Source: Thermomucor indicae-seudaticae (Eukaryota > Mucoromycota > Mucoromycetes > Mucorales > Lichtheimiaceae). From it: DNA of 64,000 bases. Each line of letters begins with the position of its first letter. Position 1 is the stretch's first letter. The DNA lies in contig JSYX01000032.1 of NCBI GenBank assembly GCA_000787465.1, forward strand, positions 43,810 to 107,809, in the 5' to 3' direction. The notes under the pieces are model-generated. The model made no database searches and was not told where the DNA came from. It worked only from the letters and a program-made list of their open reading frames with translations. The position numbers and the translations under genes are program-made. Below, piece after piece: positions 2,759 through 64,000 of the stretch.

Positions 2759-3043
2759 CTAATGGTGATGGTGGCGGTCGCCAGTAACAACGACGGTGTC
2801 ACCATGGCGATCTTGGCTCGTCAAGATACCGTCTTGCAAGAGACCGTTGAGCTAAATAGATAAATAAAGCGAGCGGGTTAGTGAGGCCCTTTCCAATCAT
2901 CTTTTGAAGGTAATACAAAAACTTACAATGCCATTGGTGCGGCCATCGTTGTTGTTGCCACCCACAGCAACGTCATCATGGCGGTCGGCAGAGACAACAG
3001 CAGCGAAAAGAGCAAAGAGAGCAACAATAGCAGAGTACTTCAT
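2759..3043 (-). CDS. small secreted Asp/His-rich peptide, tandem copy B (69 aa)
   Basis: Exons 2927-3043 and 2759-2851 flank a 75-base intron (GTAAGT donor, TTTAG acceptor). The 69-residue product starts with signal peptide MKYSAIVALFALFAAVVSA, followed by DRHDD, VAVGGNNNDGRTNGI, LNGLLQDGILTSQDRHGD and a C-terminal DRHHHH. It lacks the His run and DHYYDDQD insert of copy A near the mature N-terminus. Family and role are unknown; the fixed architecture points to a secreted Asp/His-rich, possibly metal-binding, peptide (inference). Confidence 0.8.
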
Positions 3044-3130
3044 GGTTGATGATTGTAGTGTTGTTGATGTCTATAGAAAAGGATGAGTGAATATCGGTCC
3101 TTGGCTGACTCAACATGGCCCATATTTATA

Positions 3131-4930
3131 GTTTTGATTTTGCATGCACATGAGTTCTGTAAGCAATACAGACCAACCCATTTCGAGCATAAATAGGACA
3201 AGGAGCAAGTAATACAGCTTCGAAATGGTTTATTGATCGAACTTTTCTTTCAGAGCAAACGATGCGGATGTACAGGGAACCTTTGAATATGTAGGGGGTG
3301 CACACGGGCCACCTTCACAAATGTCACTTTATCCCTTTAGCACATGGAGTTTCCGTAAGGCTTTTCATCAGCCTCCAGCCCATTGATCCATGCCATCGTC
3401 CTAGTTTTGAGCAACCTCGTTGAATAACATGCGGGTGACCTTAGCACTATCGTCGTTGATGCTCATGTATTGAGGGCCCAAAACAAGTCTCTTCAGAGAA
3501 TGAACCCTACTAATCGCCATTTCTGGGACACTGCAAGAACAAGTCCCCTGATCGTTATTATTGATTTTTGAGTTCAGGTTCAGGGTTTATTTACCAGCCA
3601 TACGCTCCTGAAGACAATAGTAGCCCCGTTACAATGATCATCCCAGGAAGACCAAACAAGGGTGATCCTTGGATGGAAATGTCACTAGATACATCGACTC
3701 TGCAATTATGGAAGCACACAGCTTTGTTATTTCTAACAGCAATTCAATGGCAAGTGAATTCAGCAGCTATCATGTCATTGAAACAAGCTGATTAAACATG
3801 TTGACTTCACTGCATATCTACATGGAAACCTAGCAAAGACGCAATGTGGAAACGAATCCGGATAACGCTTGCTAATCATACCCAGTATTGCTTACTATTC
3901 AATATTGCATCATAGTGCCACGGCTGTCACTGGAATATGCAGCATCTTCGCAAACACTCGAGAAGGATCTAACTGACCTCATTGGTAGGGAATGAAAAGG
4001 CTAGGGGAAACTAGGCTTCGTGGCTACCGGCGAAACCTTGTTATTGGGGAAATCAGGATACAAGAGAGGGACTTGGATAATCAAACGAAGCATAACAAGA
4101 GAAATCCGTCATCCCATTGTTAGCACGATTGACCGTTAGATTGAGCTGATCGCTCCAAAACCAACATCGCCGACCATTGTATAGTTTCCGCGAATGCATT
4201 CCGACTAAAATGCCGTAAGATTCGCGATGTATCATATGCTTCTACGCCCGGAGTGCGGGCATCCGAGTATTCGGTTCAGGGCATCTCGCCCTGGTCAGTA
4301 AGACTATTCTAATTAGCCAGTAAACACAGCTTAGACTCTGGTGGACACCCCAGTTGGAGTTATTTGTTTTGTTCACTCGTCCTGGCGTGAATGACTTGGA
4401 AGCATCGCAACTGCCACGGCTGACTTTCACGCGCTCATCTCAACGTGCTTAATGCGGAAAACACGCTCAAAATGGTTGTTTGGTGCTCGATCCAGCCGAT
4501 AAAGGAGAAAGCTTATGCACTTAGAAGATATCTCAAGATCGCTTATTTCAGAGTGATGAATGTAGACCATGGTTAGAGCGGTCGCTTATCCGACAATCCG
4601 ACCGAGCGAAAAGCATGCAAGGACCTGGCAGCCCAGTCAATGCGACTTGGAGATATTGAACCTGGAGATTGAGCGTCCCGAACCAAGAGACATTCCCGAT
4701 ATTCGTAGCAAACCAAGTTACTAAACTCTTCCTTCAACTTCCTAGCATGTCCAAAAGAACTCCAATAGACAATCATCAATCGTAAAAATATATAGTAGGG
4801 AGAAAGTAAATCGTGTATTTTTTCGACAAAAGAAACCTATTGGACATCAGGACTAGCTATTACTAAAGCCAGACAGGTATTCTCAAGTCCCGTATGAGCA
4901 AGGAAGAGTGCTCCGTGGGGGGAGAGGGTC
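3131..4930. other. non-coding spacer of the tandem array
   Basis: Upstream flank of copy B and downstream flank of copy C. No supported gene. Blocks near 3306, 3440 and 4134 match the other units. Confidence 0.6.
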
Positions 4931-9377: not shown

Positions 9378-11853
9378 TTACACGTCGATGCCCCAGTCGC
9401 CAACAGTCCTCATAGCATTTTCATCACCGTCAGCTATCCGCTCGCCATCCTCGCCTCCTAACACGTCGGCGACACACTTCCAAGGGTCACGGGCACCACC
9501 CCATTTGAGAAGATTATCACGGAACGCAAGCCCTTGCTCGCGATCAAGCGGATTCTTTTCAAAGCATTTTTCCCAAATCCGTCGTGCCAGCGTCCGGTCA
9601 AAGAGGTAGGAATAGTAACCTGCACCGTACCCAAATAAATGACCAAACTGGACCGGCCACATCGTGCCGGGAACACTAGGGAACAAGCCAACTTCGTCTT
9701 GAAGGGAATGCCATACGTCAACGCTTGAAAAATGTGGATCCAAGACTGCTTCAGAGTGGTACTGTTGGTCAAGTAAAGCCATCAAGATTTGACTGTTCAC
9801 TTCAATGCCGTTAAATCGACGTCGTTGTTCGAGATAGACGTCTATTTCTTTCGGCGATAAGGCATCGTCTTTTGCAAATAGCGGCAGCACTTTCGGATGC
9901 CAAACAAAATGTTCCATCAAAATGGATGGAAGTTCCACAAAGTCAGTTGCACATCGTGTACCCGCCACGTTGTGATAATCGGTTCGTCCAAGCATTGAAT
10001 GCATAGCATGGCCCATTTCGTGGAATAGAGTCTCTACTTCAAACATCGACAGCAGAACAGAATTGCCGAAACCGCGAGAATCGGAAAAATCGCAAGTAAG
10101 TGCAATTACAGGTAGCTGATATCGTCCTTTTCGGTGACGGATTTCCTCTGATGGCTGAAAAGTTGGCGGGAAGAATCTATCGGCAGGTATCGATTGATTG
10201 GGAAACGCGTAGTAGATATCGTGTTCAGCATCGTCGTCGTCAACCCTTCGTGATGTTCTTACAGTATAATGCGCTGCATTGGTCGTTTTACCAGGACGTG
10301 CAAATAAATCACAATAGATGGTTCCGATTTTCCCTTCCCTTTCGCACACCACGTCGAGTTTTCTGACATCGTCATGCCAGGACTCTCCAGGCTGCAATAC
10401 CGCGGGTTCAAATTGAACGCCATAAAGATGTTTGAACAGACGCGATAAACCCTGAATGACGGATCCTACGGAAAAGTAAGGGACGAAAGGAGCAGCACCC
10501 TTGGAAGCTCTCTCGGTCGTGCTATACAGATGCATATAGAAATCACGATCCCACGCATTTATGGTGGGTTTTTCCTTTAATCCGAGAGCCTTTTGCTTCA
10601 TTTGCTGTAGTAGCATCATGTCACGCGAAAACGCTGGCGCTTGATGCTGCAGCAATGTGCGTAAAAACGCGTTCACATTCTCTAGCCCGTGCGAGTTAAT
10701 TATCAGTCTGTCACCGGGGCAGACGGTCTCACATACCAGGATCCTTGGCCATTTTATCTTGCAGATGCAGGTGTCCAAAGGATTTTTTCCCTACTAAAAG
10801 GGCGAGTTCTGCGCGCGTCTTCATTAACAGTTCTAAAACCTGGATACTCTCCGGACTGGCAGAATTCATAGCTTCATATAACTGTCTTCGAAGGTTTTCG
10901 TCGTTTGCATATTTCAGTATGATTTGACATTCCTGGGCATCCGTCGGTATATAGGCGAATCCATCGTCGCGCTTGTAAGGCTGAGTGATCGATCGACCGA
11001 AGCCACGAAGCGAATTCGGGTTAATCTTTACATGACTGATAGCACGCGGGTTCCTCTGAATGAACTCTCGTCCAAAATAGATGATTCTATCGGAAAGTTC
11101 CACAAACTGAGAGCGCTGGCTGCTTGACAGGTGAATGCCCGATTTTTCGAAATCACGCAGAAACACTACAGCTGCTGCATGTTCGTCAGGAGTAAATTGG
11201 CTAACAATCGACTTATCATCTAGGACCTGCGCCAAAACCTGTGCATGACATCAGTAACACCTCTGCCAAAATCTTGGCAAGTACGGTGAACATACTTTAT
11301 GCATTCTGGTGTCCGTGTTAAGCGTGTTCATATAATAACATAATTCTGCATAGGCTTTGTTTGCGGCTTCCATGATTTTTTCGTCCGGATGTGCGTTACG
11401 AATAAATTCGGCCATATCAATCACACTGCAAAGCGTATCTGAGAGGCGATCCAGATTTTTTACTACTCGCCGCATTTCCTCAGGGCCATTTTCGGGCGCC
11501 TTCCAGATTCGTTCAACAATGATCTGCGCTCTTTCGATAGCTTGTTTAGCTGCATATTCAAATCCTTCGACGCTAACAAAGTTTGGGTTCCCAAGTAGGC
11601 CAACTGATTTCGGCTTATCGACAACAGTACTGTAAGATAGTTTTCGGTGTTGGTCCCAGACATTCTGATCGTCGAACACTAAGCGCAAGTATTCGTCAGA
11701 TTCCGTCGCAGGGCAAATAGCGTCCTCCGCTCTTTGCAAAGTCGATGCACGACGGATCGTAGAATAATGCCAATTCCTCCGAAAAGAGTGGCCATGCAAT
11801 ACCCATCCGCAGCGCACTGGCTTAAAGAGATTCCGCAAAACCGAAATAGTCAT
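9378..11853 (-). CDS. OCT1: mitochondrial intermediate peptidase (M3 metallopeptidase)
   Basis: Three exons, 11296-11853, 10737-11238 and 9378-10681, join in consistent phase to 787 residues, close to the usual length of fungal Oct1. The N-terminus (MTISVLRNLFKPVRCGWVLH) is Arg-rich without acids, like a mitochondrial presequence. The M3 zinc site FHEMGHAMHSMLGR and the downstream block GTRCATDFVELPSILMEH are both present. Oct1 removes an N-terminal octapeptide from proteins already cut by the matrix processing peptidase. An upstream in-frame M at 11931 would add 26 residues and dilute the presequence, so 11853 is preferred. It is divergent from PAN1 with only about 150 bases between start codons, so the two probably share a promoter region. 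Confidence 0.92.
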
Positions 11854-12001
11854 TTCAATAAGTTTTGCAAAACTTGGACCTTGCCAGCGGAACGTGGTTC
11901 CGGGCTGACAGTCATTGTAGCGTCCAATCAATTTTGCTCTTCATCTTACGCTTTAAGTAACCAACTTGCTCTTCGACTTTTATCGACCCAGGCGCGAGGA
12001 A

Positions 12002-16748: not shown

Positions 16749-19187
16749 TTATAGAGTGCTGGTAGGCTTCAGAGTAACGAGGGTGCCGAGGCAAGCCACG
16801 AATTCTTCAGGGGTATCGATATGCCATTGCGCTAATGTTTCTTTGTCTTGAGGGCCGATGGATACACAGTAAGCCCGTTGATGACGAAGTGCACGGAACA
16901 TGTCTTCGTCTGTGCGGTCGTCACCAGCGCACAAGATGAAATCAGGATTGACTTGCTGCTGTATCCGTTTGACGACTTCGCCCTTGTTGACCAGCAACGA
17001 CCGGACTTCGAGATTCATTTTTCCTCGCAGGATATCGACGCCTTTGATCTTTGTGAGTTCTTGATAGCACGCTTCGCACTGACGAAGCCTATAGCAAGTC
17101 GCAGTTAGTTTTCGACCGAGATTTAAACCGTTTTTTAAGCAACTTACGCGTCCTCTGGGTCGAGCGCATTGCGATAATGCCATGTAATAAAGGATTTCTT
17201 TTGTTCAACAACCGTGCCTGGCGTACGCGCAGAGACAGCTTCAAAGATGTCGAGGGCCTGGCTCTTCCAGCTCATGTCAGCATCTGCCAGCATGTCGATC
17301 CAAGATTGACCGGGCATCTTCATGAACGAGCCATGTTCGGCGCTCAAACCAAGGCCATGGATTGCGCCTAACCAAGCTTCGAGCGTTGCCTGATCACGAC
17401 CCGAGACTACCCAAACCACATTGTCAGGCTGGTCGCAGAGGGCCTGTAGGTGATGCAGGAGACTGGGCGTTGGTCGAGCGTCTTCAGGCTTCGGAACAAT
17501 CGGTGTCAGGGTACCGTCATAGTCAAACAGAAAGAGACGGCGTCCACGAGTCGATCGATATTGCTGAACAAGTCGTGCCGTGTTGAGAAGGCGCGGACCT
17601 TGGAGTTTCTTTAGGAACTCCTTTTGTGCGGATGGTAACGTTGTTGTTGCATGGCGGCTACTGCTGCTCTTTCTTTCCTGCTCCATAGCTTGTCGAATGG
17701 CTGATGCAACAGCTTCCGAGTCTGAGTGGTGCACAGCCCAGGTACCTTCTTGTTCGGCCATGGGTGTACCCTGCGATACAACAAGTGGTGCCGAATGGTG
17801 ACGGTCCAGGAAGGCCTGCGCAGCGACGGTGGCCATGGGATGCTGACCCATAACAAGGGCAACGTCCGCCGCAGTGAGGAGGGCATCATATTCCTCCGCG
17901 TCCAGTTCTTGGTGGTAAAAGTGGATAGGAACAAAGTCCGTGGAGCCGTACAACTGGTTGATCTGCCGAACGATATCAGGGACCGCATCGAGTGGTTCAG
18001 GTATCGTGTTGCTGGAGCATAAGTGGATGAAAACAACATCCTTGGAGAGTGCTTTGTTGGATGACAGGAAACGCTCGATGGCGGCAAGAGTCCGGAGTGC
18101 ACCGTCGCTGTGCGTCTCTTGACATAAGACGATACGCTTATCGGGAAAAAGTTGACGGATGGCTTTGGACCTGGATTCGGCAGCAAAGGATAAATGGTGG
18201 AAGAAGAGTGTGGTGGGCATTTTCATGACGGTTGTTGGAAGTGATGAAAGAGAAAGAAGGAGCGCGCAGGCGGATGAAAAGCGACGGATATCTTGTTCGG
18301 TCTTGGTTAAAATGAAAAAGAATGATCGACATGTTAGAAAAAGCTGCTGTCAATGGGATTGGCGGGAGATATCAAACCTGGAAGCCGATAAGATCGGCGG
18401 AGAGGATTCCCTGCAGGATGTGTTTATGTTCTATAAAAGGATATTCAGCAAGGGCGTACAACGGCTTCCCTCCCAATGAAATGGCACACTTACCAGGCAC
18501 TTTTAATAGATACTCCATAGAAGGAAAACGTGCGTACATTGACAAGCCAACGGATGCTCGCGGGAGCTTTCGGCGCAAGATAGCAGGGAGCAAAAGCAAT
18601 TGATAATCATGCACCCATACTGTAATTACGGAAGGTGAGATTACAAACCGTATCACTTGGCATCCGAAAAACTTACTGATATCTCGTTCCGTCTTGTATT
18701 GCTCAATAATCTTATCGGCGTATTGCTCATTAAGCTTCATATATCTTTTCCAAGCTTGTTGCTGGGACGTAATGTTGGCATTGGATGCGCAAAACAATGG
18801 GTCCAGGACTTGACAAACAATCAAGGTTAACTGGGGAAAATGTAAGATGAATGAGTAGGGTTAGTTACCATCGGTAACGTAGGCGCACGGCGTAGAAGGC
18901 CGCGTATCAACGGAGATAACGTATTGATCCTGGGCAAGAGAAGCGGCTTGGTGGATCACGTGCCAGGATGGAGGCCACATTGAGGTTTCGGCGGTAATAT
19001 TCCGTCGGCATTGCAACGAGGTAACGCCAACTGTAATATCTTCATCCTCGTCAACCAAATGTGTTGCGGGCGATCGTGGTGGTGAAGGTGGAAAGGCTAT
19101 ATCAAATGTAGCAGGAGGAAAAGGTACTGGGATGCCATTCGATGATGATGTGAGTACAGCGTGCAGAATTTTAGCATTAGTTGCCAT
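16749..19187 (-). CDS. trehalose-6-phosphate phosphatase-type protein with divergent synthase domain (Tps2-like)
   Basis: Six exons (18879-19187, 18677-18830, 18494-18619, 18378-18430, 17148-18301, 16749-17088) join in consistent phase to 711 residues. The N-terminal half is a GT20 synthase-like domain, recognisable by IIWVHDYQLLLLPAILRR and ILQGILSADLIGFQT. It is eroded: the GGL-type N-terminal glucose-phosphate loop is absent, and HTPFPS is replaced by MYARFPS. The C-terminal HAD phosphatase has all motifs: LFDYDGTLTP with both catalytic aspartates, VVSGR, and GDDRTDEDMF. It should therefore dephosphorylate trehalose-6-phosphate to trehalose, a stress protectant, with the synthase half only structural (inference). 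Yeast Tps2 is longer (896 aa). The exon 1 donor (GTTACC) is weak; the rest is firm. Confidence 0.85.
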
Positions 19188-28783: not shown

Positions 28784-31616
28784 ATGACGCTCTTCTCTTC
28801 TGCCCGTTCTCCATCGCCTTTACCAATGTTTGATGATGAGTTTGCCTGCGATATCTTTGAATCACACGCTTTCAACTCAGCCAGCGAGGAGGATGCCATG
28901 TTGTCGAGTCAGAGAAACCAAAACTTATCATCTCCTTCCAGCTTTTCACGTACTGAACCGGATTCTGATCTTTCTTCCTCATCATTATCGCCTCTTTGTC
29001 ATTATCAGAGCTTTATCGATCCTTCGGTGACTCGACTTGACGATACCGAAATGCCCCCTGTCGACGTCATTAACTCATTAAGTAATAACCGCACGACTCC
29101 GTCCACTTCGATGGTAGATACAGAATGCTACCTTCCGAGACTCAAACTGACCGGATACCATAGAACACAATGCCGTGCGATCAAAAACATTTCAAGCTAT
29201 CGAACTATCTCGATGGTAGCCGGTAAATAGAAGAAGTTCTCTGTCATCATCACTCTTTGTTGCCAAGCTGCTAACAACAGTTGCACAGACTCACGACAAA
29301 CTGTGCTCAACCAATATCGGAAGACGGGTACCCACATCTTTTCTTTTTTGTAACGTCAACATTTCAAAGGAAGAATAACGCGATTCTTGTTTATGCAGGC
29401 TACAGATCCGTGTGATTGGCGCGCCGAGTAAATCTAGAGTAGAAACGCAAATCCGACTGTGTATCCAATTGTTGACTTCAGCTGGTGCAACAAAAGTATC
29501 ATCATGGCCATATCTGAAACTTCCTGAGCGTTTGTTGGCTCGTTCACGCCTGAAGCGAAGTGCTCAAAAGACGGCCATAGAGCGTGGCCGGATGCTGTTA
29601 TCGGACGAATCAAGAATTCTATATTTAGATGCACGAGTGGCCTGCGCGACCAAGCCGAACGCGCCAGTCAAAGTCTGTGCAGGATGCATTCAACGCGAGG
29701 TAATATTTCACTCATATTTCAAGAAAATAGACGTGCTCATAAAGTATATGAATTTGAGCAGCGCAAACGAGCTGAACGGTCAAAGAATAGCAATAAGAAC
29801 CAAAACCAAGTGAAGAACCGTTCCATCATTGATGATATTCCGGAACAAGATAGGATCTTGCTTTTCAACTGTGGCCCGATGCTGAACTTCAGCTCTGGCG
29901 ATGCCATTTTGCCTACACGCATTACGTGCTATTGCAGACACCACAATGAAAAGCTCGGCTTTTGGTAAGTCCAAAATAGTCCTCAATTCGTATTGCCGTT
30001 TCTCCAACTTGAGGAACTTTTGTAGTATCCATTTCACTGCTAGAAATGACCAAGGCATGATTATTGCCAGTGGCGTTTCTCCTCCAATTCTTATTACCGA
30101 TGACCATAAGAGCTCTACGCAAAAAGGCCGAAAGCGTGTGCGGTCGGAGATTGAGCCTACCGAAGACAAGAGCAGAAGTCGGCAAAGAACAGAATCCTTA
30201 GCCTCAACGGCCTTGAACACGCCTGCGCCATCTCGACGAGGATCAGTTTCTGATAAGGGATCATCCGACCTTGGCCACCCATTGTTGGCCGATCCAGGTG
30301 CCCTTTCCGTTCTTGACAGTTTCACTGCCTTGCCGACTCCTAGCGAGGAAAGTGAACCATCCTGTCTATTTGGTGGTGCTGACCCGTCGTCCATCCAAAC
30401 CTTTTTCCCACTCGAGCAACAACCCGATCCAGCGCCGTCATCGTCAGAGCAAGATCGTGAGCAGCAACAGCAATCATCGTACGGTGGATCTGGTAGAAGG
30501 GCCAGTGTAGTGCCACAGTTGGAAAGGCTCGTGCCCCCACAAGGCCCCACGCATGGCGGCGTCGAAGTTACCATTCTCGGATCGGGTTTTTACCGAGGGT
30601 TAACATGCCTGTTTGGCGAACATGCTGCCGCAACCGTTTACTGGAACCCAAACACACTTGTTTGTGTCCTGCCTCCAGCGGCCCATCCAGGTCCCGTCGT
30701 GGTCTCATTCAAGCAGCATCCGCTGGTGCTAGACGGCCAGGAAGTGCCCCTATTTACTTATTATGACGCCAATGACCAAGCCTTGCTCGAACTTGCCCTG
30801 CAAATTGTCGGCCTGAAGATGACAGGCAAGCTGCATGACGCAAAGCACATTGCCATGCGTATTCTACATGGCGACTATTCACAATCGTCTTGTTCCCATA
30901 CGGGGAGCACCCTGGCTCCACAGCAATCATCATTCCTTTCGCACACGGGATCACTCGAAGAGAAGATCATTCTCGCGCTGCAGCAATTCGATATTTCGGA
31001 CGTAAGCCATACGAATGCCAGCAGACATACAATGCTTCATCTGGCGACGCTGTTGCAATACCAGCAACTGGTCGAAGAGCTTGTGGCTCGATGGCATTCC
31101 GGCTCGTCCCTTGACGTAAAAGATAGGAACGGATTCACGCCTTTGCAGCTGGCTTGCTGGAAACGCCACTTTGCGATCGCAAACATATTGATGCAAGCTG
31201 GTTCGGATCCGCATCTCGCATGTGGGTTGCTTGGAGGAAAAACAGCATGGGAGCTACTGAAGGAAGCAGACGACAGCACCTTTCGGTCTTTCCGCCGTCG
31301 ATCAAGCGGTCCTCTGCGACGTTACCATTGCTTTCAAGAATCGTCTATTTATAGCAGTTGTAACAGCAGCGTCAGTGACCTTTTGCTTGACGGGAGCTTC
31401 GAGCAAGACGTCTTTGGTGTCGCCAAAGGATCCAAGCCGGACCGCCGACTTTATGCGTTCTGGTTACCTTTATTGATTGGTAGGTGTGGGAATACGCCTT
31501 TAGATCATTTCGGAAATGCCAACCTTTCTCGTCAAGTGACCGTAGGTTTCCTTTATTCTCAGTTTTCAAATATCATTCCTACTATGCTCTACTCTACGCC
31601 TACATTTCGCACCTGA
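28784..31616 (+). CDS. SPT23: Spt23/Mga2-type membrane-tethered transcription factor (IPT/TIG plus ankyrin)
   Basis: Exons 28784-29215, 29406-29699, 29762-29964, 30026-31479 and 31546-31616 join in phase to 817 residues. The N-terminal DNA-binding-like region has the family blocks GAPSKSRVETQIRLCIQL, WPYLKLPERLLAR and KVCAGCIQRERKRAERSK. An IPT/TIG domain follows (VPPQGPTHGGVEVTILGSGF to PGPVVVSFKQHPL). Ankyrin repeats come next (HTMLHLATLLQYQQLVEELV, NGFTPLQLACWKRHFAIANI). The C-terminus is hydrophobic, RRLYAFWLPLLIG, as expected for the ER anchor. In yeast Spt23 and Mga2 are ER-bound precursors, cut by the proteasome after Rsp5 ubiquitination, that switch on the fatty-acid desaturase OLE1 when membranes are too saturated. 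The exact C-terminus is less certain because the 66-base last intron does not change the frame if retained. Confidence 0.88.
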
Positions 31617-39483: not shown

Positions 39484-40317
39484 ATGGCAAATCCTTCAAA
39501 TCAGCAACCACAACGGCGACGTAGAAAATCTGTAGTTCGATGCGCTCAATGCGGGGCCATGTTTCGACTTTCGCTGTGGAGCCGAGAGAGTGGGCAGGGA
39601 CCAGTATGCGATGCATGCAGCGGCATTACGGTACAGGAAGAAGATGAAGAAGTAGTGGAAGGAGAGCAGAAACCAGTGATTACTCGGACGCGGGGGCGTA
39701 AGCGGAAATCAAACAGCAACTTAGAACCCTCACCGATCTGCGCCAATTGCCAAACAACCAATACCCCACTCTGGCGACGGGATGCCAATGGCAACACGAT
39801 ATGCAACGCTTGCGGTCTTTATTACAAGCTTCATATGGTCCATCGACCCATCACCATGATGCGCACAGAAATCAAACGCCGGAAACGGTCATCAGACAAG
39901 AAGCGAAATAATAAAAAGTCATCGGATGAAGAAGACCGTGGCCAGACGCCACCCTTGAGCTTTGATAGCGATGGCACAGACATCCAAAGCCCAGTAGCAT
40001 CACCAAAACAACAACAAGTACAAGTAGAAGACGACGTGCCGTGTGGCCATACCATGGAAGATTTGCAAGAAAAGCGCAGGGCGCTGCAATATGAAGTCTC
40101 TCGGTTATCGGCCCTCTTGTCCGAAACAGTCGCCAAACTTTCGGACCTGGACGCCTCATTAGCCAATTACTCCTCCTCTTCTTCATCATCCTCGTCATGC
40201 CCGATTTGCCCCGAATTAGTTAAACCCGTCACCCATAACAACAACGATAACTGTATCCGCTTGCCACCTATTTCCTTTGTTACCATGGGCGCAGTGCCAC
40301 CTCCCTTTGAATTTTAA
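39484..40317 (+). CDS. GATA zinc-finger transcription factor (277 aa, no intron)
   Basis: Single exon of 277 residues. Residues ~20-45 form a divergent CX2CX18CX2C finger (CAQCGAMFRLSLW...CDAC). Residues ~82-106 form a canonical GATA finger, CANCQTTNTPLWRRDANGN...CNACG, with the usual basic tail (YKLHMVHRPITMMRTEIKRR) and a Lys/Arg-rich nuclear signal (RRKRSSDKKRNNKK). A leucine-rich coiled coil (LQEKRRALQYEVSRLSALL) precedes a poly-Ser run, and the tail is LPPISFVTMGAVPPPFEF. Fungal GATA factors control nitrogen, iron or light responses; the cysteine-rich spacer of iron regulators (Fep1/Sre) is missing, so I do not assign one. Confidence 0.88.
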   Translation: MANPSNQQPQRRRRKSVVRCAQCGAMFRLSLWSRESGQGPVCDACSGITVQEEDEEVVEGEQKPVITRTRGRKRKSNSNLEPSPICANCQTTNTPLWRRDANGNTICNACGLYYKLHMVHRPITMMRTEIKRRKRSSDKKRNNKKSSDEEDRGQTPPLSFDSDGTDIQSPVASPKQQQVQVEDDVPCGHTMEDLQEKRRALQYEVSRLSALLSETVAKLSDLDASLANYSSSSSSSSSCPICPELVKPVTHNNNDNCIRLPPISFVTMGAVPPPFEF

Positions 40318-57053: not shown

Positions 57054-60042
57054 TCACAAGACGGGTACCTGAGGCCTTATTCCCTCCAAAGAGTTTCTCA
57101 TACTAGTAGCGGTATGCAACACTTCATCTGGTAAACCTGATTGTATACGTATAGCACATCTATTAGCTCAAATGCTATAAAAAACAAGGAGGCGATGTGT
57201 TTACCTGCCAGAGCAGCCACCTTTATACCATGGGACTGGCGACACACGCCAGGTTGAACCCGGTGCAAATAGGTGAAGCCGCCGTCGGGGGTCCCTTGTA
57301 GACTAGTCATGAAACATTTTGTGGCCCTAAAACCCGAGGCTGTGATCAAATCAGCCAGTTCGTGATAATGCGTTGCGAAGAGCGTACGGCAGCCGATGCG
57401 CGTTTCAAGATAATGCATAATCCCGTAAGCAAGCGACAGACCATCTGAGGTTGATGTCCCACGTCCCACTTCGTCCATGATGACCAGTGAACGCGAAGTT
57501 GCATGCTTGAGGATATTGGCCGTCTCCGTCATTTCTACCATGAAAGTCGACTGGTCTTGCGCTAAACTATCTGCGGCTCCGACTCGACTGAAAATGCTAT
57601 CTGTGATTCCTATCTCTGCAGATTGAGCGGGCACAAACGATCCGATATGAGCCAGCAGCGTTATAATGGCGTTTTGGCGTAAAAATGTGCTTTTGCCACC
57701 CATATTGGGACCCGTCAACAGCCAAATGCGCTGCTCAGACCCAAGATGGCAGTCGTTCTTGACAAAGTTGCGTCCTTTTCTGGCAAGATTTGCCTCTACC
57801 ACAGGGTGTCTGCCACCAATGATGACGGTCTCATTAGAGGCCGTCAGTTTGGGTCGTACGTAGCTGTAGTGTAATGCAGACCAAGCAAAGCTGGCGAGCA
57901 CATCGAGCTGTGCCAGTGTATAGCAGTTTCGGATGATAGAGCTTGACTGGGACAGCACCAAGCTAATTGTCTCCGTCAAAACTTCATTCTCGATTTCAGC
58001 AATTTGTGCATGTGTATTTTCCATGGAAATGGATAACGTGGTCCATTCATCCAACTGATATCTGTGCTTGCTTTTCGTTTTGTTGACGAGCGTAGCTTGA
58101 TAATGGCTTAAAAGTTTAGTCGCTTGGGATGCATTAATCTCGACAATATGCTTGTATGCTCCATTACTCGAAAGTGATACTGAATTGCCGCAGATGGCTC
58201 GTAAGCGAGACTGGAGAGCGTCGCGCTGAACGTAGAGTTCCTGGAGGTACCGGTGTAGATATTCAAGCTTCTCATTGTAATACGGATAAACAAAACCATA
58301 CGTTTGGTCCTTAGCTTCGCCAGAAGTAATCTTCTCGTGATCGAATGCCACAGTAATATGTTCAAAGACAGAATCCAGAGGATTTAGGAACCTTGCGAGT
58401 TCTTCAACGGCTCTATATATTTCTCCATGGCGTTCTCGGGTAGCAGGTGATACTCTTCTGCATGCTTCATTGAGTTCAGTCTGTATCTTTTTGACAGCTT
58501 GCAAAGTCCAGCCGATATCCAGCAATTCTTGGTGCTGACCTCGACCCAAAGCCAGTCGCTGAAGTGCCCGTTGCGCGTCAGCAATATGCCGTAATAGGTG
58601 ACGAACTTGTTCCAAAACCTGCCGATGCTGTACGAAAAATTCAACAACGTTCTGCCTTTTTTCGATGATGTCGACCGACGTTAAAGGAGAAGAGAGCCAT
58701 CTAGTCAAAAGCCGCGAACCGGCGCGACTCACTGTATGATCCATGGCAGCCAAAAGACTATCCGTCCGTCGACCTTCCCGAAGACTTCTAACGATTTCAA
58801 GAGATGACATTGCGGCGCTGTCAATCCGTAGTGTATCTGCGGTATCGACACGAACAGGTTTCCCAAGCTTCAGTCTTCCGTCTTTAAGCGTGCTATTCAC
58901 ATAGTCTAACAACGCCATACTAGCCGCTGTCTCTCCAGGACTGAATTCATCTATAGAATGGGTTACATGGTTGGATCCGAAGCTACAAGTTTCGATCATC
59001 TCATCCGGTGCATTAAGCATATCTCGTAATGCTTGCCGCCCTTCTGACGAGTTAAACGAGCTATCAGGCCAGTAACTGATCATGACGCTTGTGTCGGCTA
59101 ACAGCGCCCGCACAATAGGGTTGTATGCTGCCATTCCACCACCCTCTGCGACGTCTGCAAGCACATCATCCGATGGTTTGTTCGTTTCTGGCAAGATCAC
59201 TTCACGCGGCCGTATCCGAGCAATGTCATCTTTAAAAGTCTCTAATCTCGAGGATTGCGTGAAGAATTCCCCAACCGACACGTCCACCCATGCTAACCCA
59301 ATCGTATCCTGGCCTTCCCTAGACGATGGCTTGACGGCAAGCAGATAATTGTATGCATGCGAATCCAAGAACCGTTCCTCAATAACCGTTCCTGGCGTTA
59401 TAATCCGCGTGACACGTCGTTGAATACTGACTTCATCATCGCAAGTACTATTGTATTGTTCACATAAAGCGACACGGCAACCCAGTCGATTTACGAGAAT
59501 ATCGAGATATCGGTCGAGGGAACGGGATGGAAAGCCAGCAAAGTCCACTACTAGTCCACTGGCCATGGTCTTACGCGTTAACTTCAGATCCAACTGCGCC
59601 GCATAGCGTGTCGCGTGCGTGTCATAAAGCTTTGATCACTAACATGAGAAGAAGAAAGGCCAACATGCACGAGCTCTTTTGTGCTCACCTCGTAAAAGTC
59701 GCCTACTTGCATGAGAAGGACGCACAGCGGATACTTTTGTGTGTATTTACGAACGGCATCAATGACAACGGAACCACTAGTGTTCTGCTTTGGTTCCAGT
59801 GCGAGCTTGCACTTTTCGCTGCTTCCTTTTGATTCAGCTGGATCCGATCTAGGCATCAATGGCGATTCTTGTTTTGGCAGATGTTCGAATACTTCTTCCA
59901 GACGTCCACTAGTGACACGTTTGGCAGCGAGTGAAGTCGCACTTAATGATCGATGAATTCTTCCATTCAACGGGAAGGAATGCCATGATGCAGCTCTTGC
60001 GGCTCGCCTTAAAGAGCATGAGCATGAACGCAACCTGAGCAT
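57054..60042 (-). CDS. MSH1: mitochondrial MutS homologue Msh1
   Basis: Exons 59689-60042, 57205-59629 and 57054-57136 join in phase to 953 residues. The N-terminus is Arg/Ser-rich without acids (MLRLRSCSCSLRRAARAA), a mitochondrial presequence. MutS domain I contains LLMQVGDFYELYDTHA, in which the FYE mismatch-reading motif spans the first intron. Further blocks: VDFAGFPSRSLDRYLDILVN, ITPGTVIEERFLDS, GLAWVDVSVGEFFT, the lever/clamp region, and the ATPase with Walker A LTGPNMGGKSTFLRQ, TFMVEMTETANIL and Walker B LVIMDEVGRGTSTSDGLSLAY. The terminal exon adds the short LPDEVLHTATSMRNSLE helix. It repairs or stabilises mtDNA. Confidence 0.92.
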
Positions 60043-61515: not shown

Positions 61516-62384
61516 TTTTTCTTAATTACTAAAGGCGTCCTCTAAATCTCAACACTAATGACGCAAGCAGCGCGGAATGAGTCCTGTTTCGAGTTCCTTT
61601 AACCAGCATACGACACTTCGGCAACCATGGCCACAGAAACGTCAGAAATAAAGTTCATTTACGTACTGCTCCAGATTTTACCTCCCCAACCCTCTTATCC
61701 TGAGCTTCCTATCGAATAGTGATTTTGATGCCTGGTTCGACGAGACTGCTTGTTGTCGTGGTACCTGGAATCAGCAGAGACAGTACATCCAATCTAGCAC
61801 TTCGACTCTGAAACATCTTCTCTTATTCTGACCATACAACCATCTACAAGCCTTGCAGCAGCAACCCAGTACCGAACCGCCAAAGAACAGGATCGATAAA
61901 ACTTGGATGCCCTGCTAGTCTCAAAGTTGTCAAGAAATTGAGTGGTAGAGCATCCATTACATATACTTGGAAAAATGGGGCCATGACTGACAAACTCGCT
62001 AAGATACTGTTCGCTCTATATTACCGAAAGACGTGAAAAATGCCTGCAGACACACACTGACACCGTAATGGACTGGAAGGCTGTCAGAAGTATTGTCAGA
62101 CTTTACGCTGGCCAGCTTGGTGAGGTATGTACGACAACAATAGAAGTTTACGGGTAAGTATTAAACTGTTCTTTACACAGCTTGAAAATAGTTTGGAGGA
62201 CGATCATAAAGGCTTTTGATGCTCTGATCGTTCTTTTCAGCCAGACTACTTATCAGAATCTCATCAATAAATCAATAGCCCATTTTAAATGAACTTATCC
62301 AGGTCTGGCTTAAGTTCTGACGGAACTTATGATCGTAATTGTTTCAACTTGTGACGGATCACTGTGGGAAAGAATTGGGTGAAT
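61516..62384. other. gene-poor DNA upstream of the Fanzor relic
   Basis: A short frame from an ATG at 62068 (MDWKAVRSIVRLYAGQLGE then GTATGT) could be a degenerate upstream exon of the nuclease gene, but this cannot be shown. Confidence 0.3.
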
Positions 62385-62452
62385 TTCGGGTGAAAACCGG
62401 TTCTGGTGGTAACCGGTTTAAAGAGCTTAATGAGAACTCGTTTTCACCCGAA
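62385..62452. repeat. nested perfect inverted repeats at the 5' side of the Fanzor relic
   Basis: Outer arms TTCGGGTGAAAAC (62385-62397) and GTTTTCACCCGAA (62440-62452) are exact 13-base complements. Inner arms AAACCGGTT (62394-62402) and AACCGGTTT (62411-62419) are exact 9-base complements with an 8-base loop. The two structures overlap by four bases on the left, so they are alternative or cruciform folds. Confidence 0.8.
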
Positions 62453-63634
62453 GGTCATCCAATCCTTTTCCACAATGGACAACGTGAATTTTGGGCCAAG
62501 ACCTGTTGAAAATAGATTCGAGCCGCGCGCGACCATTCGTACAAACGGGATGGTGCTCGATATTCCCTATACTGATTGGGAAAGACGAAGACCCCTTTTC
62601 ACACGGCTGCTGCTACCTGAAATCAGAACTGTCCAAGAAAGGTCCCCACTCGACGTAACAATTACCAAGGCATCATCGGTGTCGACTTCGGGGAGACCTA
62701 TGCAGCTGCGACATTCTTTATGCCATTCGACGAAGCGCGCCAAGGTAGCCAACTTCTAACTAAGCGCAACGAATCGTATGGAAATATGACAAAGAATCGC
62801 ATTTGGCTCGAAAATCGTAAAACTTGAGTATGGCATACACGAAGTAGAAAAAGCGCTCTCAGAAGGTTCGCAACGTTCCACCTGGTCCAGGTATTACGAT
62901 TATCTGTCTGCATGGCAAAAAGATGGCAATGGAATCAAGCTGCACAATTTCTACCGACACAAGGCCGTTTTACGGAAAGCATGGGACACCCAAAAGTCGA
63001 TCATCTCATCCTTGGACAAGGCCTGTGACATGATCCTTGCACACGCATATCGTGATCAACATATACATAACGCCAAACCAACTGTTTCGGCTTGGGTTAC
63101 GACGGAATCACATGCAGGCACCGAAAAGGCGCACTGAGTCCCATGGACAGCAGACTCAGAGATCGGCTGGTCCAACAACTGAAAAATCATCCTTTGAAGC
63201 ATGCTATTTGTCGCATCGATGAATATATGACGTCCAAGCTTTGCTCTAGCTGCACGCAAAATGGAAAAGCAAGAATGATGAAGCACTTCGAGCGGGATGA
63301 CGGCTCCGCAAGTCTACATATACTGACATGCAACGTTGACGATGGCTGCTGTAACAAGATCATACACCGCGACGGGAATGCCGCTCACAACATTGCCACT
63401 ATCACCATGTCTATGGTCAAGCGTGGGCAGCGACCATACTGGTTCATTCGTCCGAGCAGGTGGATCAAGCCGAAGCTACCGGTTCTTTCTGCTCCTAGCA
63501 AGAGGAAACGACAAGGTCGACCCCCGGAAGCTAGTTCTTCATCTTCACAAGGCCCTGTCCCATCACATTCTAGCAGTCTTTCTCCGCGACGATCTCCTTT
63601 TCGCGGCTTATTCAAATTGAAGTCCAACTTCTAG
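62406..63634 (+). pseudogene. Fanzor (eukaryotic TnpB-like RNA-guided nuclease) relic
   Basis: Fragments in order match the TnpB/Fanzor fold. A strand block ATIRTNGMVLDIPYTDW comes first (~62530). RuvC-I IIGVDFGETYAAATFF, with catalytic Asp, is at ~62672. Bridge-like helices KNRIWLENRK and EYGIHEVEKALSEGS follow, then LHNFYRHKAVLRKAWDTQKS. GLGYDGITCRHRKGALSP is at ~63090. RuvC-II RIDEYMTSKLCSSC carries catalytic Glu and the first zinc pair; the second pair is CNVDDGC, and RuvC-III HRDGNAAHNI supplies the last Asp. The tail is KRKRQGRPPE plus a Ser-rich basic stretch, NLS-like. Reading frame changes at about 62620-62670, 62790-62822 and 63065-63090, with no plausible introns, so the gene appears broken by small indels. 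The typical N-terminal ~150-250 residues are not visible. All catalytic residues survive. Confidence 0.78.
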
Positions 63635-64000
63635 TCCACCTGCTAACCGTTGGATCGAGGTAACCATCGAATTTCCCTGGGTAAGTCACTCTTTTTATTT
63701 AGTGGTCACCTAGACACTTACGTCATTACTGTTGAAATTTAGAGAGATCCTTGCTACACGCAGCAGGCGCTCGCAACAATGGCGAACACGTCTAGAGTAG
63801 ATTACGAAAGAAAATGACAGATAGTAACGTGAAATTTAAACGGACTTTTCCCCTTGACATCTGTTGAATTTCAGACTGCTTCCTTGTTATCGACGTGAGC
63901 TGCAGCATAAAAGAGGATAGTGAAGTGGTCAAGTAACTGGTACATCACGTAGTGTATTCCACAGAACCTACAGACATTAGCGATTACAATAGTAATGCCG
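63635..64000. other. 3' flank of the Fanzor relic to the window edge
   Basis: No coding frame. Guide RNAs of TnpB/Fanzor elements usually derive from the region overlapping and following the 3' end of the nuclease gene, so this stretch would be the place to look; no obvious repeat or element end is visible before the window ends. Confidence 0.35.

Follow-up and report, generated by a model that had tools for sequence, protein, structure and literature searches.

The window analysed here is a stretch of 64,000 nucleotides that covers positions 43810-107809 of contig C31, at its right end, in a genome assembly of 24.8 Mb and 735 contigs; other copies in this genome are referred to by their contigs. 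Pfam matches on its main open reading frames (ORFs) identify a peptidase M3 (9378-11931, - strand), a trehalose synthase/phosphatase (17144-18824, - strand), an SPT23/MGA2-like protein (29901-31616, + strand), a GATA factor (39484-40317, + strand) and a MutS homologue (57098-60042, - strand), a set of host genes consistent with a fungal genome. There are no tRNAs in the window, and Rfam returns nothing there at gathering thresholds. To the right of these genes lies the relic of a mobile element of about 2.2 kb (61540-63750, + strand) with inverted ends that are common to its relatives. It contains the remains of a Fanzor.

The left end of the element recurs in C356, C102 and C51, and its right end in C290, C351, C356 and C65, with the last 11 nt also found as TAGAGAAATCC in C294. 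The left terminal inverted repeat, CTCTAAATCTCAACACTAATGACG (61540-61563, + strand), is complementary to the right one (63721-63744, + strand) with two mismatches over its 24 nt. The ends read CTCTAAAT...ATTTAGAG, with six extra nucleotides at the right. Inside the left end, the remnant of an ORF region (61627-62359, + strand) is shared at 76-85% DNA identity with Fanzor-less elements in C356, C491, C503, C102, C195, C206, C86, C51 and C351; these nine have in common with the window about 820 nt 5' of an inserted hairpin repeat. Two of the relatives' ORFs were scanned: that of C491 has no Pfam-type match, and that of C206 weakly resembles FAR1, the transposase type of MuDR/MULE transposons, below the cut-off (E 0.026). 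In C356, C351 and C51 the window-like parts are separated by a filler without Fanzor, and C491, C503, C195 and C206 carry the same filler over the stretch compared; C102 ends before it, and C86 has additional short matches to the Fanzor part. At the right, positions 63610-63750 are common to the window copy, C356, C351, C290 and C65. Because both the right end and the left part are shared with Fanzor-less elements, the Fanzor relic is seen to sit in a chimeric terminal-inverted-repeat element.

The inserted hairpin repeat (62360-62515, unstranded) is a MITE-like unit of 156 nt; more than 15 other contigs have matches to it. Its 45-nt arms are 82% complementary, and it folds as DNA with a z-score of -5.9. 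About a dozen of the matches are near full length, and several have a second partial copy some 200 nt away.

Transposase-free terminal-inverted-repeat elements carrying Fanzor1 are described from Mucor-type fungi in the available text of Bao and Jurka (ROr-4, PBl-3 and MCi-4; PMC3627910), along with MCi-2 copies that share a 6-kb 3' region. For the first three, 9-bp duplications are reported there, whereas no convincing target-site duplication was found in the window copy and C356, the only two read with both flanks. By eye, neither has a 9-bp duplication of the MuDR/MULE kind at the edge of the inverted repeat; with the left edge shifted 6 nt outward, the window copy agrees at 6 of 8 nt and C356 at 4. 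C321 was considered as an empty site and set aside, as its match to the right flank starts at 63754 and nothing matching the left flank was seen. Positions 63754-64000 match the start of C321 at 87%; both are contig ends, and so the match is either a repeat present in two copies or a break between haplotypes.

The Fanzor1 relic and its relatives

Four Fanzor-like segments on the + strand are spread over 62502-63634 in two alternating frames, so that the frame changes three times, at about 62.66-62.67, 62.82-62.83 and 63.09 kb. The first segment (62502-62660) aligns to C65 from query residue 491. The second (62672-62824) carries the RuvC-I motif GVDFGE at 62678-62695, with its Asp at 62684-62686, and is followed by the third (62829-63090). 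These three were identified by reading and alignment to C65, not by Pfam. The fourth (63092-63634) comprises RuvC-II, the zinc ribbon, RuvC-III and a Ser/Arg-rich basic tail, and closes with a TAG codon (63632-63634). Here we find IDEYMTSKLCSSC (RuvC-II Glu at 63221-63223), a second Cys pair placed by alignment A5 at 63329-63331 and 63350-63352, and HRDGNAAHN, with the RuvC-III Asp at 63371-63373. RuvC-I, RuvC-II, the two Cys pairs and RuvC-III thus stand in the correct order across the three frame changes, just as the initial annotation had it. Its statement that no catalytic residue is lost holds as well: the RuvC Asp, Glu and Asp and all four Cys can still be read. The tail (63440-63631), 3' of the zinc ribbon, includes KRKRQGRPP, has a similar counterpart in C290 and looks like a nuclear localisation signal.

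The same annotation put the inactivation down to about three frame changes. Three are indeed present, but they are not the only defect, as the copy is also 5'-truncated. With C65 as the query, 490 residues precede the point where the window's alignment begins, so at least 490 residues are gone, and by this alignment the N-terminal (REC/WED) half is missing. Position 62406, formerly taken as the start, is not a gene start: the ORF beginning there opens inside the inserted repeat, and Fanzor homology sets in at about 62502-62530. The element and its termini, along with the omega-RNA-like region and an EXO1-like partner described below, fall outside the interval first proposed.

Fanzor-family identity, for which a profile search had been suggested, is borne out by a match to a RuvC/TnpB family: the piece 63092-63631 matches PF07282 with an E-value of 1.7e-6 and 28.5 bits against a cut-off of 26.3. 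The pieces 62406-62756, 62672-62824 and 62829-63134 have no Pfam match above cut-off, the last showing a SapB_1 match below threshold (E 0.054). A profile of alignment A5, made from nine family pieces of this genome including the window's, finds 17 sequences in the PDB with E up to 1. SpuFz1 of Spizellomyces punctatus (8gkh) comes first at 3.8e-6, followed by LaTranC (4.3e-5 and 4.9e-5), a TnpB-like viral protein (1.8e-4) and PpFz1 of Parasitella parasitica (9cf0, 7.8e-4), with TnpB and others below. When C591 and the window ORF were each used singly as PDB queries, nothing came up at E 1 or below. In a protein database the C65 ORF had no match and A5 had one, P0001, which is near-identical to C591 and whose structure, predicted without an alignment, has a mean pLDDT of 33.

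The RuvC and TNB motifs of the window's family are shared with SpuFz1 as presented in the main text of its description (PMC10432273). A C-terminal motif, D-X(125,275)-[TS][TS]-C4 zinc finger-RD, is given as the Fanzor1 signature in the available text of Bao and Jurka (PMC3627910); by reading, it is found in the window across frames and in C294 and C591 within one frame. The window copy belongs to Fanzor1. That the piece is a chance match or an unrelated zinc-ribbon protein, as the three pieces without a Pfam match might suggest, is already refuted by the profile match and the genomic relatives and deserves practically no weight.

Genome-wide there are 37 PF07282 matches, the window site included. 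As to the expectation that an intact relative might exist, relatives abound, but none of the copies read is both complete and uninterrupted. The nearest by DNA is C290 (89%) and by protein C65 (59%). The longest open frames are 677 aa in C591 and 423 aa in C294, the latter cut by the contig start, and C65 has frames of 818 and 142 aa with a single stop between them. C65, C591 and C198 retain a long open N-terminal region, with no profile match to REC/WED. Over the block at 63.1-63.5 kb, the window copy and C290 differ with a dN of 0.058 and a dS of 0.171 (ratio 0.34); against C65 or C294, synonymous sites have reached saturation and pN is 0.20-0.33. These values do not show the copy to be young, as had been assumed. 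Judged by dN/dS, they would fit a lineage long under purifying selection in which the window copy died later. At least 12 of the 37 sites have less than 2 kb of contig 5' of them, and these repeats seem to break the assembly.

The right end of the element

Beginning at the last base of the stop codon, an omega-RNA-like stem-loop (SL1; 63634-63655, + strand) has 7-nt arms with one mismatch and an 8-nt loop. The adjoining SL2 region (63656-63680, + strand) is degenerate in the window, where alignments A1 and A2 show an insertion relative to the relatives. Diverged copies likewise have, shortly 3' of the stop, a stem closed by an 8-nt loop of about YGMYGACC, then another hairpin and a GTACRG|GTAAGT-like sequence. 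An arrangement of this kind is known from SpuFz1, whose omega-RNA lies between stop codon and right end and has two stems according to the main text (PMC10432273), and from PpFz1, a Mucorales Fanzor1 with an SL1 and a short SL2 (main text, PMC11423790); PpFz1 differs in having within RuvC an FRI insert that binds cyclophilin.

A covariance model built from eight copies, excluding the window's and including close relatives, finds the window SL1 with 31.4 bits (E 1.1e-6). At E values of 10 or less it gives 21 matches in 34 of 89 loci, the model's eight included, and the weakest of these are probably chance. Covariation of SL1 is shown by computation: over 13 typed copies in a sequence-only alignment it reaches 0.551 versus at most 0.20 for slid partners, and 82.4% of cells are paired versus 60.6% after shuffling (13 copies). 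Two of five covariation measures are not above shuffles; pairs changed on both sides number 4 versus 4.1, and further pair types 10 versus 8.0 (81/500). In none of six sequences does the right end fold clearly better than its shuffles (z +0.5 to -1.3), and the covariation term is small.

Searched as a pattern, SL1 occurs at 8 sites in the whole genome and at none in a reversed control. Four of the eight (C221, C244, C287 and C662) are outside the PF07282 list, and because they have the stem without such a match we consider them ghost candidates; Fanzor-less ghost elements also figure in the main text on SpuFz1 (PMC10432273). The common sequence of C221, C287 and C662 ends near ATGGACTGACC. A second pattern, for the window's subfamily, hits nine genome sites at up to 2 mismatches and none in the control. 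The right end keeps a putative omega-RNA-like module that is common to Fanzor-less elements.

Between SL2 and the end of the element lies an intron-like stretch of 62 nt (63681-63742, + strand) that runs from GTAAGT over CTTAC (63717-63721) to TTTAG. The right inverted repeat just reaches the candidate branch point, and the candidate acceptor falls within it. What follows would be a second exon made of the element's last 8 nt (63743-63750, + strand; AGAGATCC, in relatives AGAAATCC). The layout recurs in six of seven subfamily copies, a count that leaves out C51 and C508: each has a stretch of 59-68 nt ending in TAG|AGARATCC and then a differing flank, C109 being the copy without it. Introns of similar size and form can be read in the host M3 peptidase gene.

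Across subfamilies, G[TC]RAG follows SL1 in 15 of 19 copies versus 12% of random windows, with the window's subfamily represented in this count by C65 and C51 beside C294. The site is lacking in C508, C272, C244 and C51, and displaced in C640. A branch-like CTNA with an AG after it, within 45-112 nt, is present in 13 of 19 copies that all have a 5' site, versus a background of 69 out of 235 for the 5' sites on the window's + strand. Six of these 13 are the window's subfamily with C294, and outside it 7 of 13 pass. C591, C640, C40, C221, C287 and C587 fail, C587 by length, with about 42 nt under the limit of 45. By eye, C4, C64, C645, C198, C587 and C165 show an acceptor, a short stretch and then GTAAG again, and subfamilies of this type may have two introns. 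In the window's subfamily the acceptor falls inside the inverted repeat, with only C294 separating the two, and its conservation there could be due to the need of the inverted repeat for transposition.

It is plausible, going by these signals, that the omega-RNA is spliced and its scaffold thereby joined to the guide, although several copies do not fit. The strongest competing view is that the RNA is used unspliced, with a scaffold of about 110-120 nt, and that GTAAGT and TTTAG occur by chance or serve the mRNA only. The main text on SpuFz1 lends it weight, with a scaffold contiguous with the inverted repeat up to its end (PMC10432273), as do the several copies lacking a full intron. On the other side, C65 and C294 keep the stem-loops, the splice signals and the last 8 nt, but by eye not the middle, and the spliced length would come near the 52-nt trimmed SpuFz1 scaffold and the 75-nt omega-RNA of PpFz1 (main text, PMC11423790). 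We put the unspliced form at only slightly short of even odds.

An EXO1-like partner of the fuller copies

In C65 and C591, ORFs with XPG-like motifs are seen 5' of the Fanzor. The piece from C65 passes XPG_I with 30.3 bits at a cut-off of 24.9 and by eye has the acidic motifs VDFCC, IDGD, YEAD, EDGD and GNDY, which we take to be those of the EXO1 active site. A profile of seven XPG pieces (A6) matches EXO1 best (E 5.9e-10), then FEN1 (4.6e-4) and RAD2 (0.035). Exonuclease 1 and FEN1 thus share the XPG_I domain and acidic motifs with these relatives of the window copy, whereas here the XPG part belongs to a mobile locus present in many copies and is followed 3' by a Fanzor.

A genome search with the C65 piece yields 20 matches on 16 contigs. 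In C65, C4, C591, C198, C645, C134 and C368 the XPG match shares the strand of a PF07282 match and lies 3.0-3.9 kb 5' of it; the distance is shorter in C272, making 8 of the 37 PF07282 sites XPG-linked. In C165, by contrast, the interval examined at that distance (1.1 kb, 2.7-3.8 kb 5' of the Fanzor) belongs to another open frame without XPG similarity. A second PF07282 class in C174, C184, C415 and C16 (IDEYLTSQICPKC ... RNRDxMAALNI or similar) differs by eye from the XPG-linked one.

The two parts meet in C4, where one ORF (143576-144145, 190 aa) contains both the C-terminal XPG segment (IALHQ) and the one with which the Fanzor begins (SSVLSA); the later Fanzor ORFs of C4 stay in its frame, with single stops between. 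In C134, IALHQ in turn shares an ORF with the NDY motif. It is because this open frame of C4 bridges the end of the XPG part and the start of the Fanzor that we propose a fusion. Computation shows the XPG domain with its acidic motifs linked to the Fanzor in C65, and the bridging ORF in C4; that both form a single polypeptide would follow from reading a chain of ORFs. An EXO1-like XPG nuclease is probably fused to Fanzor1 in the window's family, with damage or introns in each copy.

One could instead see the EXO1-like gene as a neighbouring, separately transcribed transposon gene and the window as a plain Fanzor1 relic. The XPG parts of the copies read are frame-shifted or interrupted, by frame changes or introns, and nine of the 16 contigs have an XPG match and no PF07282 (C187, C354, C156, C8, C209, C300, C671, C551 and C524). 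There is also a viral precedent in the available text of Bao and Jurka (PMC3627910): the Tc/mariner elements PGv-1 and Mariner-2_PGv carry an extra nuclease beside Fanzor1 in one element, though as separate 3' GIY-YIG or restriction-type proteins and not as an XPG 5' of the Fanzor. We hold such an arrangement to be unlikely here, given that the open frame of C4 spans both parts with no intergenic gap, that the motifs matched keep the same order in seven loci (the full set only in C198 and C65), and that among the nine without a PF07282 match two contigs, C354 and C671, end less than 1.8 kb 3' of the XPG match. A further point against the fusion comes from C368, where a transposase-type helix-turn-helix ORF (2934-3368 of the locus, + strand; HTH_23 over cut-off), perhaps a nested transposon, separates the XPG match from the Fanzor match and runs on the strand opposite to both.

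How a live member might work

Taken together, the window copy is a real but dead, 5'-truncated Fanzor1, and alone an ordinary relic. Our main reading, to which we assign a probability of roughly 0.7, places it in a chimeric terminal-inverted-repeat element whose fuller kin would combine an EXO1-like XPG domain, a linker and Fanzor1 (RuvC, TNB), with a right-end scaffold that has splice sites.

A fuller member would make a single long protein that runs from the EXO1-like XPG nuclease through the linker to a Fanzor1 with RuvC and TNB at its end. Soon after the stop would come the omega-RNA-like scaffold (SL1 with its 8-nt loop, and SL2), in most copies with a 5' splice site at its 3' edge, and in the window's subfamily the element would end 8 nt past the 3' splice site. 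Transcription might pass through the right end into the flank, and splicing would remove about 60 nt and join a scaffold of about 50-57 nt, counted from SL1, to the flank as guide. In the window the flank usable in this way, if such an RNA were made, would be 63751-63770 (+ strand), as suggested by the SpuFz1 layout (PMC10432273). The Fanzor would then cut an empty or allelic target, and the attached EXO1-like domain would resect the 5' ends, which would favour copying of the element by homologous repair. Splicing, guide use and resection in a live member are deductions from sequence. An effector fused to its own end-resection nuclease and working with a guide RNA that the host spliceosome completes, its second exon running into the flank, is a combination we put forward tentatively and would not back at even odds.

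Bacterial IStrons offer another model: the element is spliced out of host transcripts, or mRNA and guide RNA are balanced by splicing. Splice signals with such a purpose would suit an acceptor at the very end of the element. The donor identified in diverged subfamilies, however, follows SL2 and is not near the left end, and we hold an IStron-like role to be quite improbable.

No report of an EXO1-Fanzor1 fusion or a spliced omega-RNA was found in the open-access literature searched. The main text on SpuFz1 has no XPG, exonuclease or intron, and 'splic' once (PMC10432273); that on PpFz1 makes no mention of intron, spliced, exonuclease or fusion (PMC11423790), and the available text of Bao and Jurka none of XPG, exonuclease or intron (PMC3627910). 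The available passages of a further paper mention viral 'candidate Fanzor flap endonuclease homologs' and describe no fusion (PMC11071296). What would be new in this family is the probable fusion of an EXO1-like nuclease to Fanzor1 and, perhaps, splicing of its omega-RNA; separate nucleases beside Fanzor1 were already known from viral elements (PMC3627910).

The paper on SpuFz1 (PMC10432273) describes the biological function of Fanzors as unknown. An EXO1-like domain would directly turn RNA-guided cutting into gain of the element via homologous repair. If the omega-RNA is spliced, it would be the spliceosome that attaches the targeting part, tying the guide of a mobile element to the RNA processing of its host. 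The EXO1-Fanzor1 fusion may be visible in public fungal proteome annotation.
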